The notes under the pieces were generated by a model. That model did not search any database, was not told the DNA's origin, and worked only from the letters and a program-made list of their open reading frames with translations. A program made the translations under genes and the position numbers. This document shows positions 57,892-61,687 of a stretch of DNA of 62,414 nt, one piece after another (the stretch's first letter is position 1; every line of letters begins with the position of its first letter). The DNA comes from Microcaldota archaeon (GTDB lineage: Archaea > Micrarchaeota > Micrarchaeia > Micrarchaeales > Micrarchaeaceae), in the NCBI GenBank assembly GCA_021807115.1, contig JAKAPJ010000004.1, positions 1 to 62,414 of the forward strand, given 5' to 3'.

Positions 57892-58176
57892 TCACACATG
57901 CAGTATCACCTTGCCCACTATTGACCCTGCGCGTATATCGCCGAACTTCCTGCTGTCCTCGCTTAGGCGCGAATTGTCCCCCACTACGAAGCACGAATCC
58001 CTGCCGGAGCGCGTGACCCTCTTTACCATGCGCATGCCCGTGCCAGGATGGGGGAACACCACAATGTCGCCGCGGCGAAACTTCCTGCCCCAAGTGTAGA
58101 CCACGATGAAATCGCCCTCCCTCAGGCCCGGCTCCATGCTGCGGTCGCGCACCTTGAAGACCATGAGTGGCATCAT
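57892..58176 (-). CDS. sodX: NiSOD maturation peptidase-like protein (S26 type)
   Basis: 94 residues of the signal-peptidase (S26) fold without a membrane helix. The Ser of the dyad lies in FKVRDRSMEPGLREGD and the Lys in MRMVKRVTRSG; FVVGDNSRLSEDSRKFGDI is the third conserved block. This soluble form is the SodX type that removes the propeptide of nickel superoxide dismutase. The gene follows sodN by about ten bases, GGTCTGAGCG being a possible ribosome site for the ATG at 58176; a GTG at 58182 is alternative. An archaeal signal peptidase I would carry a helix and be longer. Confidence 0.85.
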   Translation of the reverse strand: MMPLMVFKVRDRSMEPGLREGDFIVVYTWGRKFRRGDIVVFPHPGTGMRMVKRVTRSGRDSCFVVGDNSRLSEDSRKFGDIRAGSIVGKVILHV

Positions 58177-58186
58177 GGCCACGCGC

Positions 58187-58702
58187 TCAGACCTTTGGGT
58201 AAACTATCTCCTCGCCGGTAGGATAGAACGCCTTGACCCTCTTTGTCTGCACGTTCTTCGTCTTCCAGAATATCTCGGCTATCTTCTCCACGTTGCCTAG
58301 CAGTGCCTTCGCATCTTCCATGCTGGTGCCCTGTTTTGCCTTTGATGCCAGCTTCAGCGTGTCCCACACCAGTCCGTGCAGCTCTGGGTTGGCCTGCACG
58401 TGCTCGGGCTTGAAGTAGTCAGCCCAGAGCACGCGTATCTCGTGCTTGCACAGTTCAGCGTGCTGCTCCTTTACGGCGACGTACCTTGCCATCTTGTTCT
58501 GCGCGTCGGCGTCAGCCTTCCCCACCTTTACGAGATCGGCTATGAGTCCGTCCATCCTTATGACAGTGTGCGCTGCGACCTGGGCAGCATGCGGATCGTA
58601 TATGCCGCACGGTATGTCACAGTGCGCATGCGCCACGCCCAATGGTCTCAGAGAGTCAGTGACCTCGAAAATCCGCCTCAGTGCCTTCTTTGCTATGTGC
58701 AT
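58187..58702 (-). CDS. sodN: Nickel superoxide dismutase precursor
   Basis: 171 residues. The nickel hook His27-Cys28-Asp-Ile-Pro-Cys32-Gly-Ile-Tyr35 (HCDIPCGIYDP) and the helix bundle with AVKEQHAELCKHEIRVLWAD, YFKPEHVQANPELHGLVWD and EKIAEIFWKTK identify NiSOD, which dismutates superoxide. A 26-residue leader ending AHA precedes His27: a cleavage after A26 would expose His1, which NiSOD needs as ligand. The mature part is about 145 residues, longer than Streptomyces NiSOD by a C-terminal KAFYPTGEEIVYPKV stretch. Ribosome site GGTGGATAA and TATA box support the ATG at 58702. Cytoplasmic by context. Confidence 0.93.
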   Translation of the reverse strand: MHIAKKALRRIFEVTDSLRPLGVAHAHCDIPCGIYDPHAAQVAAHTVIRMDGLIADLVKVGKADADAQNKMARYVAVKEQHAELCKHEIRVLWADYFKPEHVQANPELHGLVWDTLKLASKAKQGTSMEDAKALLGNVEKIAEIFWKTKNVQTKRVKAFYPTGEEIVYPKV

Positions 58703-58724
58703 TTATCCACCATAACTAGCTTAA

Positions 58725-58744
58725 CATAAAAGGTTTAAATAATT
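58725..58744. promoter_or_regulatory. Divergent promoter of sodN and leuS
   Basis: Minus-strand CCTTTTATG (58725-58733) is 27 nt from the sodN ATG. The adjoining GTTTAAATAATT (58733-58744) is symmetrical enough to serve both directions and lies about 65 nt before leuS. The two genes must share this 100-base stretch. Confidence 0.5.
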
Positions 58745-58804
58745 GCATTAAAATAAGGTAGTATTCTGTTCTTCTCCGGTGCTGCGGTTCGGTACAGGAC
58801 GGTC

Positions 58805-61687
58805 ATGCCCATGATTGATTACAAGGACATAGAAACCAAATGGCAGAAGGCGTGGGAGGATGCCAAGGTGTTCCAGCCAGAGCCTAACGACAAGGAGGGG
58901 CTGCTGGTCACGGCCGCGATACCCTACGTAAACTCCCCGCCGCACATAGGGCACCTGAGGACATACGGCACAGCGGACACGTACGCCAGGTACATGCGGA
59001 TGAGAGGCAGGAATGTGCTCTACCCGTTCGGCTTCCACGCGACGGGGACGCCGGTGATAGCGTTCGCAAAAAGGATAGCGAAGGGCGACAAGGAGCTGAT
59101 AGACGAGCTCAAGCTCTTCCATGTGGCGGACGAGGACATCAAGAAAATGACAGATCCGGTATTCATAACGGAGTACTTCATAAGGGCGCAGGAGGCCGAC
59201 TTCAGGAGGGCAGGGATGGGCGTGGACTGGAGGAGGAAGTTCGTAACCACTGAGCCGCTTTTCAGCAAACTGATCGAGTGGCAGTTCAGCAAACTGAAGG
59301 AGAAGGGGCTGCTCATACAGGGCACGCACCCGATCGGCTGGTGCACCAACGAAAGCCAGCCGGTGGGGCAGCATGACACCAAGAACGACGCGCAGCCGCG
59401 TATAGAGGAGATAACGGTGGTCAAGTTCAAGGATGCGGAATCTGACGCGTACTTCGTGTGCGCAACGTACCGCCCTGAGACTATATACGGGGTGACAAAC
59501 CTCTTCGTGGGCGAGAGTGTGGGATATGTTTCGGCCATCGTGGGCGGAGAGCGCTACTATATGTCGCTGGAGTCCACACATGCCCTCGCCAGGCAGATGA
59601 AGATAGAGGTGGAAAAGACCGTAGATGTGAAGGACCTGCTGGCAAGGCACGCGATAAACCCGGTCACAAAGGAGACCGTGCCGGTGCTGCCCGGGTTCTT
59701 CGTCAAGGCGGACGTAGGTACCGGCGTGGTCATGAGCGTGCCGTCCCACGCGCCATTCGACTATGCTGCACTGGAGCGGCTCAGGGCCGGCAACTACGCG
59801 CTGCCGCAGATGGAGTACAAGAAGCTGATAGAGGTTGAGCCGCTCAACGGCGTGTCGGTGGGGAGGTCGTGGACAGAGGGCAAGCGGGGCAGGGTAACGC
59901 ACCCCGAGATACCCGCGCTGGCGTACCTTGAGCTCCTGAACACCAACACGATGGCCGTCGAAAGCTCGCTGGAGTTTGCGACCAAGCTGATATACCGGGA
60001 AGAGTCTCACTGGGGCGTCATGCTCGTGGGCAAGTACAGGGGGCTGAAGGAGGCGGAGGCCCGGGAGAACCTCAAGAAGGACCTGACCGCGAGCAGGGAG
60101 GCGTTCTTCATATACGAGATAAGCAACCAGGAGCCGGTGTACTGCAGGTGCGGCACGAAGGTAGTGGTAAACGTGGTAAGCGACCAGTGGTTCATAAACT
60201 ACGGGGACGACAACTGGAAGAACGAGGTGAGCAGGGTCCTGCTCAAGATGAGGATATACCCGGACAAGTACAAGCACACGTTCGATGCGGTAGTGGACTG
60301 GATAGACGCAAGGGCCACTGAGAGGGCGCAGGGACTGGGCACGAAGTTCCCTCTCAACCCTGAACACATAATAGAGTCGCTGTCCGACTCCACGATATAC
60401 ATGGTGTTCTACACGTTCGTGCACATACTGCGCCAGTGGGACGTGCACCCCGAGCAGCTTAGCGCGGAGTTCTTCGACTACGTGATAAACTCGGTTGGCG
60501 ACGTTTCGGTCGTTGCGAGGATAACAGGTATAGACGAGATTGCAATAGGCAAGTGCAGGCAGTCCCTGCAGTACTGGTACAGTGATACCTCAAGGCACTC
60601 CGCGCCCGACTTGGTATACAACCACCTGGTGATGTACATATTCAACCACGTGGCGCTGCTCCCGCCCCCTATGTGGCCCAAGCAAATAGTCGTGAACGGG
60701 ATGGTGAACTACGAGGGGGAGAAGATGAGCAAGAGCCTGGGCAACATAATACCGCTTGGCGATGGGATAGCCAAGTACGGCTCCGACCCTATGAGGTTCA
60801 TAGAGATTGCCGGCGCGGACCTGGACACCGAGACCGAGTTCAGCGTGGACTCCGTGAACAGCATACTCTCCAAGAACGAGACGCTTTACGGCGCGGTTGA
60901 CGTGCTCAACGCAATGAACGGCGTGGAGCTGGAGCACATAGACTACTGGATGTATTCGCGCATAAACACGAGGATAGCGAAGGCTACAGAACACATGGAC
61001 CGGCTGGAATTCAGGGACGCGTACACCGAGGTGTACTATAACGCGCTGCGCGACATGAAATGGTACATGGACAGGGGCGGCCACAACCATGTCGTCATGC
61101 GGGACTTCCTGGAGAGCGCCATACTAATGCTGGCGCCCATAATGCCGCATTTCGCGGAGGAGATGTGGCACAGGACCGGGGGCACTAGCCTTGTTGTGCA
61201 GGAGAAATGGCCGGAGCCCAACGCGGGGCTGGTAAACGCTGCGGTGGAGGACGTGGAGTCCGTGATAGAGGGAACGGTGGACGACATAGCCGAAGTGATA
61301 CAGTTGTCCTCTAAGATAGACGCAAACAAGAACAAGAGAATATCTGGCATAAAGATAATAGTGGCAGACAACTGGAAGAGGATCGCATACAACATGCTTC
61401 TGGACCACAGGAACATAGCCAGGGTGGTGAAGGATCCCGGGCTCAAGGGTGTCGATCCGGGCAAGGTCGCGAAGTTCCTCGGGCCATTCGTGAACAGGTT
61501 GCCGACCCTCTTCAAGGTCCCGGAGGTGGACAGCAAGGAGGTGTACGACGGCTTCAGGGGATCTGCGGGATACTTCAAGAAGCTGTTCAGGGCGGAGATA
61601 ACCGTGGAGATGGAGGGCGCATCCGCCTCCCCGCGCGCGGGCAGGGCGCTGCCCACAAAGCCGAGCATAGAGGTAATTTGGGCCTGA
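58805..61687 (+). CDS. leuS: Leucyl-tRNA synthetase, archaeal type
   Basis: 960 residues, class I. ATP motif HIGHLRTYGTADTYARYMR; the editing (CP1) domain with FVCATYRPETIYGVTNLFVG; the second ATP motif EKMSKSLGNIIPLGDGIAKY; anticodon-binding helices near 690-790; and a long C-terminal domain ending EVIWA. The organisation (editing domain placed after the first zinc region, long C terminus) is that of archaeal and eukaryotic LeuRS. Start at 58805 or six bases on, at 58811. Divergent from sodN; the HAD gene follows 12 bases after the stop. Confidence 0.95.
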   Translation: MPMIDYKDIETKWQKAWEDAKVFQPEPNDKEGLLVTAAIPYVNSPPHIGHLRTYGTADTYARYMRMRGRNVLYPFGFHATGTPVIAFAKRIAKGDKELIDELKLFHVADEDIKKMTDPVFITEYFIRAQEADFRRAGMGVDWRRKFVTTEPLFSKLIEWQFSKLKEKGLLIQGTHPIGWCTNESQPVGQHDTKNDAQPRIEEITVVKFKDAESDAYFVCATYRPETIYGVTNLFVGESVGYVSAIVGGERYYMSLESTHALARQMKIEVEKTVDVKDLLARHAINPVTKETVPVLPGFFVKADVGTGVVMSVPSHAPFDYAALERLRAGNYALPQMEYKKLIEVEPLNGVSVGRSWTEGKRGRVTHPEIPALAYLELLNTNTMAVESSLEFATKLIYREESHWGVMLVGKYRGLKEAEARENLKKDLTASREAFFIYEISNQEPVYCRCGTKVVVNVVSDQWFINYGDDNWKNEVSRVLLKMRIYPDKYKHTFDAVVDWIDARATERAQGLGTKFPLNPEHIIESLSDSTIYMVFYTFVHILRQWDVHPEQLSAEFFDYVINSVGDVSVVARITGIDEIAIGKCRQSLQYWYSDTSRHSAPDLVYNHLVMYIFNHVALLPPPMWPKQIVVNGMVNYEGEKMSKSLGNIIPLGDGIAKYGSDPMRFIEIAGADLDTETEFSVDSVNSILSKNETLYGAVDVLNAMNGVELEHIDYWMYSRINTRIAKATEHMDRLEFRDAYTEVYYNALRDMKWYMDRGGHNHVVMRDFLESAILMLAPIMPHFAEEMWHRTGGTSLVVQEKWPEPNAGLVNAAVEDVESVIEGTVDDIAEVIQLSSKIDANKNKRISGIKIIVADNWKRIAYNMLLDHRNIARVVKDPGLKGVDPGKVAKFLGPFVNRLPTLFKVPEVDSKEVYDGFRGSAGYFKKLFRAEITVEMEGASASPRAGRALPTKPSIEVIWA

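Follow-up and report, generated by a model that had tools for sequence, protein, structure and literature searches.

A nickel superoxide dismutase gene and an adjoining maturation peptidase gene in a Micrarchaeota genome, at a site that holds an Fe/Mn superoxide dismutase gene in sister genera

The DNA analysed (62,414 nucleotides; hereafter the window) was one contig of a 1.18-Mb Micrarchaeota genome that is 86% complete; among named genomes its closest relatives were Micrarchaeota assemblies. The locus comprised sodN, encoding a nickel superoxide dismutase (NiSOD) precursor, and sodX, encoding its candidate maturation peptidase, which began 4 bp downstream of sodN on the same strand (Table 1). 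On the upstream side of sodN lay a divergent leuS of archaeal type, encoding leucyl-tRNA synthetase (LeuRS), so that an operon beside archaeal LeuRS, as a preliminary description of this DNA had it, was indeed present.

Table 1. Features of the sodN-sodX locus, with positions in the window
Feature	Position	Strand	Basis or remark
sodX, S26-type NiSOD maturation peptidase, 96 aa, GTG start	57892..58182	minus	PF10502, PF00717, linkage
SodX Lys54, predicted general base	58021..58023	minus	aligns with KR motif of signal peptidase I 4ME8
SodX Ser15, predicted catalytic nucleophile	58138..58140	minus	aligns with SM motif of signal peptidase I 4ME8
sodN, nickel superoxide dismutase precursor, 171 aa, ATG start	58187..58702	minus	TIGR02753, PF09055, predicted structure
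SodN C-terminal tail KAFYPTGEEIVYPKV, residues 151-171	58190..58252	minus	predicted beta-hairpin
Nickel hook HCDIPCGIYDP, residues 27-37	58592..58624	minus	His27 would become His1
26-residue SodN leader MHIAKKALRRIFEVTDSLRPLGVAHA, ends AHA (residues 24-26)	58625..58702	minus	predicted helix
Divergent leuS-sodN intergenic region, 102 bp	58703..58804		read in sequence
GGTGG, putative ribosome-binding site for sodN, four bases upstream of ATG	58707-58711		read in sequence
TATA-like AAGGTTTAAATAAT in the leuS-sodN gap	58730-58743		read in sequence
leuS, archaeal leucyl-tRNA synthetase, flank defining the SOD slot	58805..61687	plus	TIGR00395 (leuS_arch) 831 bits; synteny

SodN scored 168 bits against TIGR02753 (the NCBI equivalog model; cut-off 90) and 153 bits against PF09055 (cut-off 25), and since both scores lay far over the cut-offs a chance match was excluded. 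The nickel hook was intact, as had been claimed, and showed no variation in 23 diverse SodN homologues. By comparison with PDB sequences the hook was aligned with residue 1 of Streptomyces NiSOD; Streptomyces NiSODs were the only sequence relatives of SodN in the PDB at E <= 0.001, and the alignment comprised residues 27 to 150. The predicted structure (AlphaFold, 23 homologues; mean pLDDT 90.9) was a four-helix bundle, and all 16 of its fold matches in the PDB with E <= 0.001 were NiSODs, with a target-normalised TM of about 0.9. By family models, hook and predicted four-helix-bundle fold, SodN is a NiSOD.

The leader described previously, 26 residues ending in AHA right before the hook His, could be read in sodN. 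In the predicted structure it formed a helix of its own, at low confidence across the putative cleavage site (residues 26-30). No hydrophobic signal-peptide core was found in it by hydropathy (maximum 0.34 over 12 residues), which argues for a maturation leader and not a secretion signal. Residue -1 before the hook His was Ala in 100 of 101 SodN homologues and residue -3 was Ala or Val in all 101; Ala/Val-x-Ala ahead of the cut is the classical S26 signal-peptidase-like rule. At the other end of the protein, the tail was predicted with good confidence as a hairpin with strands at residues 153-157 and 165-169. The preliminary description had regarded this long C terminus as extra. A comparable tail followed the last helix in 82 of 82 distinct SodNs listed, both archaeal and bacterial (Chloroflexota, Acidobacteriota, Aquificota), and by this comparison the tail is a shared trait of one NiSOD branch and no oddity.

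SodX scored 60 bits against PF10502 and also passed PF00717. Against TIGR02754 it reached 57.5 bits, under the cut-off of 63.25, which was passed in 17 of the 26 genomes having a match; the SodX label was based on linkage to sodN and on conserved residues, not on the TIGR02754 model. Ser15 and Lys54 were unvaried in 77 of 77 aligned sodN-adjacent SodX proteins, and no transmembrane stretch was found in the SodX sequence, as for a soluble protein. sodX adjoined sodN in 27 of 28 copies (27 genomes), the remaining copy being at a contig edge, and nearly all archaeal sodN loci had sodX directly downstream. In G220 and G221 (L253, L248) sodX was oriented opposite to sodN, unlike the usual operon. 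The 4 bp gap, the two Pfam matches, the Ser/Lys dyad and the lack of a transmembrane stretch agreed with the earlier account of a soluble S26 peptidase gene directly downstream, and the SodN family scores together with the adjacency and dyad of SodX upheld that of a NiSOD with its own maturation peptidase. According to an excerpt of PMC3919588, NiSOD activity in Prochlorococcus depends on the cognate peptidase (Eitinger 2004, as cited there). The sodN-sodX pair is intact, and the NiSOD that its sequence predicts is most likely functional.

In the mechanism proposed here, NiSOD would be made as an inactive precursor in the cytoplasm, and SodX, translated from the next gene, would cut after AHA with its Ser15/Lys54 dyad and leave His27 as the new N terminus. 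Nickel would be bound by the amino group of His27, the next backbone amide and the thiolates of Cys28 and Cys32, and in one redox state also by the side chain of His27. The assembled NiSOD, the only SOD detected for this cell, would then disproportionate superoxide. Cleavage before His27, nickel binding, SOD activity and assembly as a hexamer are properties that we infer for this protein.

Nickel importers were searched for in the same genomes. CbiM and NicO gave no match in the window's genome. CbiM was found in none of 60 close genomes. NicO was present in 5 of 27 genomes with NiSOD, in 0 of 27 with Fe/MnSOD and in a single one that had neither, which are few cases. The five NicO-bearing NiSOD genomes all came from one family. 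With CbiM absent and NicO in so few genomes, the SOD pattern was not attributed to nickel importers. The missing importers, like the SodX score just under the TIGR02754 cut-off, would be expected if the protein were made but inactive, through an absent nickel supply or a degenerate peptidase. We consider this quite improbable, given that the hook and the catalytic residues of SodX are fully conserved, that searches of the window's genome for other SOD types gave no match, and that most NiSOD-bearing relatives are likewise without CbiM or NicO, so that another nickel uptake route is likely. How small-genome archaea that lack both of the known importer families tested acquire their nickel is a puzzle in its own right.

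NiSOD was carried by 11 of 14 sampled genomes of the window's genus, by 27 of the 60 closest genomes (the window's genome counted) and by 53 of 301 genomes of the phylum. In excerpts of the literature, pairs of NiSOD and SodX are a classically bacterial trait (PMC3919588), published NiSODs include those of Thermoplasmatota, Nanoarchaeota, Aenigmarchaeota, Thaumarchaeota and Asgard archaea (PMC10783094), and Micrarchaeota are described with Fe SOD, Fe/Mn types only (PMC5864196, PMC8773360); with archaeal NiSOD already published and Micrarchaeota reported with Fe SOD, the finding extends a known kind. The view that archaeal NiSOD is rare was not sustained for this group by these counts, and NiSODs of other archaeal groups are published; the gene pair is of an ordinary kind, NiSOD and its peptidase being common in this archaeal lineage. 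Of the functional transfer proposed earlier, the functional part stood, the pair being intact and most likely functional; the implied isolation did not, given 11 of 14 genomes of the genus and 53 of 301 of the phylum.

In the SodN tree, two families of the order formed one clade (100/99), except G049; G156, from another family, also lay outside the main Micrarchaeota clade. When all SodNs of the window's genus were constrained to a single clade, the constraint was not rejected (p-AU 0.08). Bacterial SodNs (Chloroflexota, Acidobacteriota, Aquificota) sat among other archaeal ones, from which it follows that between-domain transfer has occurred in the family. This placement is what would speak for a recent direct transfer of the pair from a bacterium into the window's species, which is nevertheless very unlikely: the nearest SodNs were those of congeners (79% identity to G005) and other Micrarchaeota, and the SodNs of the order were one clade apart from G049. 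With most Micrarchaeota SodNs in one clade, the window's copy would have been mainly inherited or exchanged within the lineage and not be recently bacterial. The probability that the contig is bacterial or chimeric and was wrongly binned with archaeal DNA, a source of error that the preliminary description had named and that the classically bacterial character of NiSOD-SodX pairs (PMC3919588, in excerpt) might bring to mind, is negligible. SodN was nested in the Micrarchaeota clade, and an archaeal leuS on the same contig, with leuS-sodN-sodX in the same order in 10 independently assembled congeners, argues that there was no bacterial misassembly.

Phage and plasmid records were also searched for sodN. 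No phage record matched and only two plasmid records did, both bacterial, and spread by phages or plasmids was rejected on these grounds. G003 carried two differing sodN-sodX-leuS loci on two contigs (L118, L119), the second of which ended inside leuS; perhaps two strains were binned together. GenBank records titled 'Candidatus Marsarchaeota' (L032, L037) carried Micrarchaeota sodN and are probably mislabelled; the sodN of L032 was identical to that of G001, a congener of the window.

NiSOD and Fe/MnSOD were rarely found together. Among the 60 close genomes, 27 had NiSOD, 27 had Fe/MnSOD, none had both and 6 had neither (Fisher p = 1.5e-11, relatedness ignored). Across the 301 genomes of the phylum there were 53 with NiSOD and 168 with Fe/MnSOD, and a single genome (G221) had both, against about 30 expected, again with relatedness ignored. 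When independent pairs differing in both traits were taken from the trees, 0 differed the same way and about 4 in opposite ways (p about 0.125-0.25). Superoxide reductase was found in 0 of the 60 close genomes and was rejected as the alternative enzyme. In the window's genome neither the Fe/MnSOD C-terminal domain nor superoxide reductase gave a match; at 86% completeness, the assembly could have missed an Fe/MnSOD gene. From the mutual exclusion we infer that NiSOD is used in place of Fe/MnSOD in the window's lineage.

The gap beside leuS (the leuS slot) was compared across genomes. The window and ten congeners (G001-G003, G005-G011) had sodN-sodX divergent beside leuS, and an Fe/MnSOD gene stood in the slot in the same orientation in six genomes from sister genera of the family (G014, G018, G019, G023, G025, G026). 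Fe/MnSOD was also found there in three further genomes of sister genera (G229, G242, G271). Two non-homologous SODs therefore alternate between the same flanks. The slot was empty in many genera, as well as in G004 of the window's own genus, and with so many empty slots it is no general insertion hotspot. Where kept, its far flank was a peptidase-A24-like membrane gene, and the gap in these cases measured about 900-965 bp where it held sodN-sodX, about 730 bp where it held Fe/MnSOD and 45-245 bp where it was empty. In the window this far flank was replaced by a PMT_2 glycosyltransferase-like gene. Extra unidentified DNA was present in the slot at two loci (G010, G017). The divergent gap between SOD and leuS was mostly 44-102 bp (184 bp in G026) and was AT-rich with TATA-like elements under either enzyme, in NiSOD congeners and Fe/MnSOD sister genera alike.

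The Fe/MnSODs of the six slots (L129, L132, L133, L136, L138, L139) formed one clade in the tree (100/99), well separated from the ordinary type in other genera and with about 30% identity to the ordinary Fe/MnSODs of the family. Four metal ligands, at positions that we take to be the ligand positions, were retained in the alignment. Relatives of the slot type occurred away from the slot in G024 and G035, and on a very long branch in G053. By a four-gene RNA polymerase tree the hosts of the six were not a clade (p-AU 6.5e-73); one clade of enzymes in hosts that are not a clade fits an old slot resident that was lost or replaced several times. A host tree in which the slot-Fe/MnSOD lineages formed a clade excluding the window's genus was not rejected (p-AU 0.24), so that either SOD may have come first at the slot and two separate insertions are a possibility.

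A comparable pattern was found at a different place in the sister family. The Fe/MnSOD gene of G037 lay between a conserved four-gene operon and uL16/L10e with diphthamide-synthesis genes, and that of G172 shared the uL16/L10e and diphthamide-synthesis flank. sodN-sodX lay between both of these flanks in G051 and, inverted, in G058, and had one such flank in eight other genomes (G222, G052, G186, G197, G044, G041, G046, G220). Distances varied from about 50 bp to 5 kb, which makes this second neighbourhood weaker than the leuS slot.

The alternation at leuS is most simply read as one SOD having displaced a non-homologous other in place. Alternatively, NiSOD and the slot Fe/MnSOD may have been inserted independently in the same gap, a favourable promoter site having been used twice without displacement. 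This is a possible but doubtful course of events. It agrees with the many empty slots, that of G004 included, and with a species tree on which an Fe/MnSOD ancestor is not required (p-AU 0.24); it would require the same gap and orientation to be hit twice among roughly a thousand genes, which seems unlikely, at a place where almost no non-SOD gene was seen between the peptidase-like neighbour and leuS, and it meets a further difficulty in the second shared SOD neighbourhood of the sister family. Under displacement, sodN-sodX would be a replaceable cassette behind a shared divergent promoter region. A newcomer might arrive beside the resident SOD, which would become dispensable and be lost, or recombination between conserved flanks might move the switched state among relatives.

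In the LeuRS tree G007 (L123) stood next to G014, which has Fe/MnSOD in the slot, and G028 (L141) stood inside the NiSOD-bearing genus; the RNA polymerase tree disagreed on both. This conflict hints at exchange of leuS between genera, and the second route is suggested by the same two positions. No clear breakpoint was found within leuS by sliding identities, and recombination inside leuS is accordingly not claimed as the vehicle of the swap.

Taken as a whole, a cytoplasmic NiSOD matured by SodX, used instead of Fe/MnSOD and placed in the leuS slot by displacement is the reading that we regard as likely. For Micrarchaeota more broadly, we lean slightly towards SOD being an exchangeable cassette, in which Fe/MnSOD and sodN-sodX would replace each other at the same place (beside leuS in the window's family, near uL16/L10e in the sister family) and almost never occur together. 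NiSOD, of which a few archaeal cases had been reported, is hereby extended to a DPANN lineage that the excerpted literature describes as a user of Fe SOD. Dozens of sister species differ in SOD metal, and in some of them the alternative gene occupies the same site; with these natural replicates the question of why lineages switch metals becomes testable. What deserves further study is how two unrelated SODs alternate at a single site.

The leader of Streptomyces NiSOD has about 14 residues, and that of the window's SodN has 26. Streptomyces NiSOD (PDB 1T6U, 1Q0D) has the same hook, HCDxPCGxYDP, and the same four-helix fold (TMt about 0.9), with roughly 42% identity to the window's SodN in the fold alignment; SodN differs in about 8 extra residues inside the bundle and in the 21-residue C-terminal hairpin, which is absent in Streptomyces. 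In marine cyanobacterial sodN-sodX (Prochlorococcus MIT9313; PMC3919588, in excerpt) an S26-type peptidase is likewise encoded beside sodN and the leader is removed to expose His1, whereas the window's host is archaeal and its SodX is slightly under the NCBI model cut-off. In Marine Group II and other archaea, NiSOD alternates with Fe/MnSOD between clades (PMC10783094; Sutherland 2021, cited there), as it does here; the excerpts of that report do not mention Micrarchaeota, sodX or replacement at a shared site. The Fe SOD described from Micrarchaeota (excerpts of PMC5864196 and PMC8773360) comes from the same phylum and has the same function, but the enzyme is non-homologous to NiSOD. The leuS slot resembles gene displacement in situ in that a gene is replaced at one chromosomal place. 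Such displacement is a known concept for operons; the two occupants of the leuS slot are unrelated proteins that differ in their metal, and a dedicated protease comes with the nickel unit.
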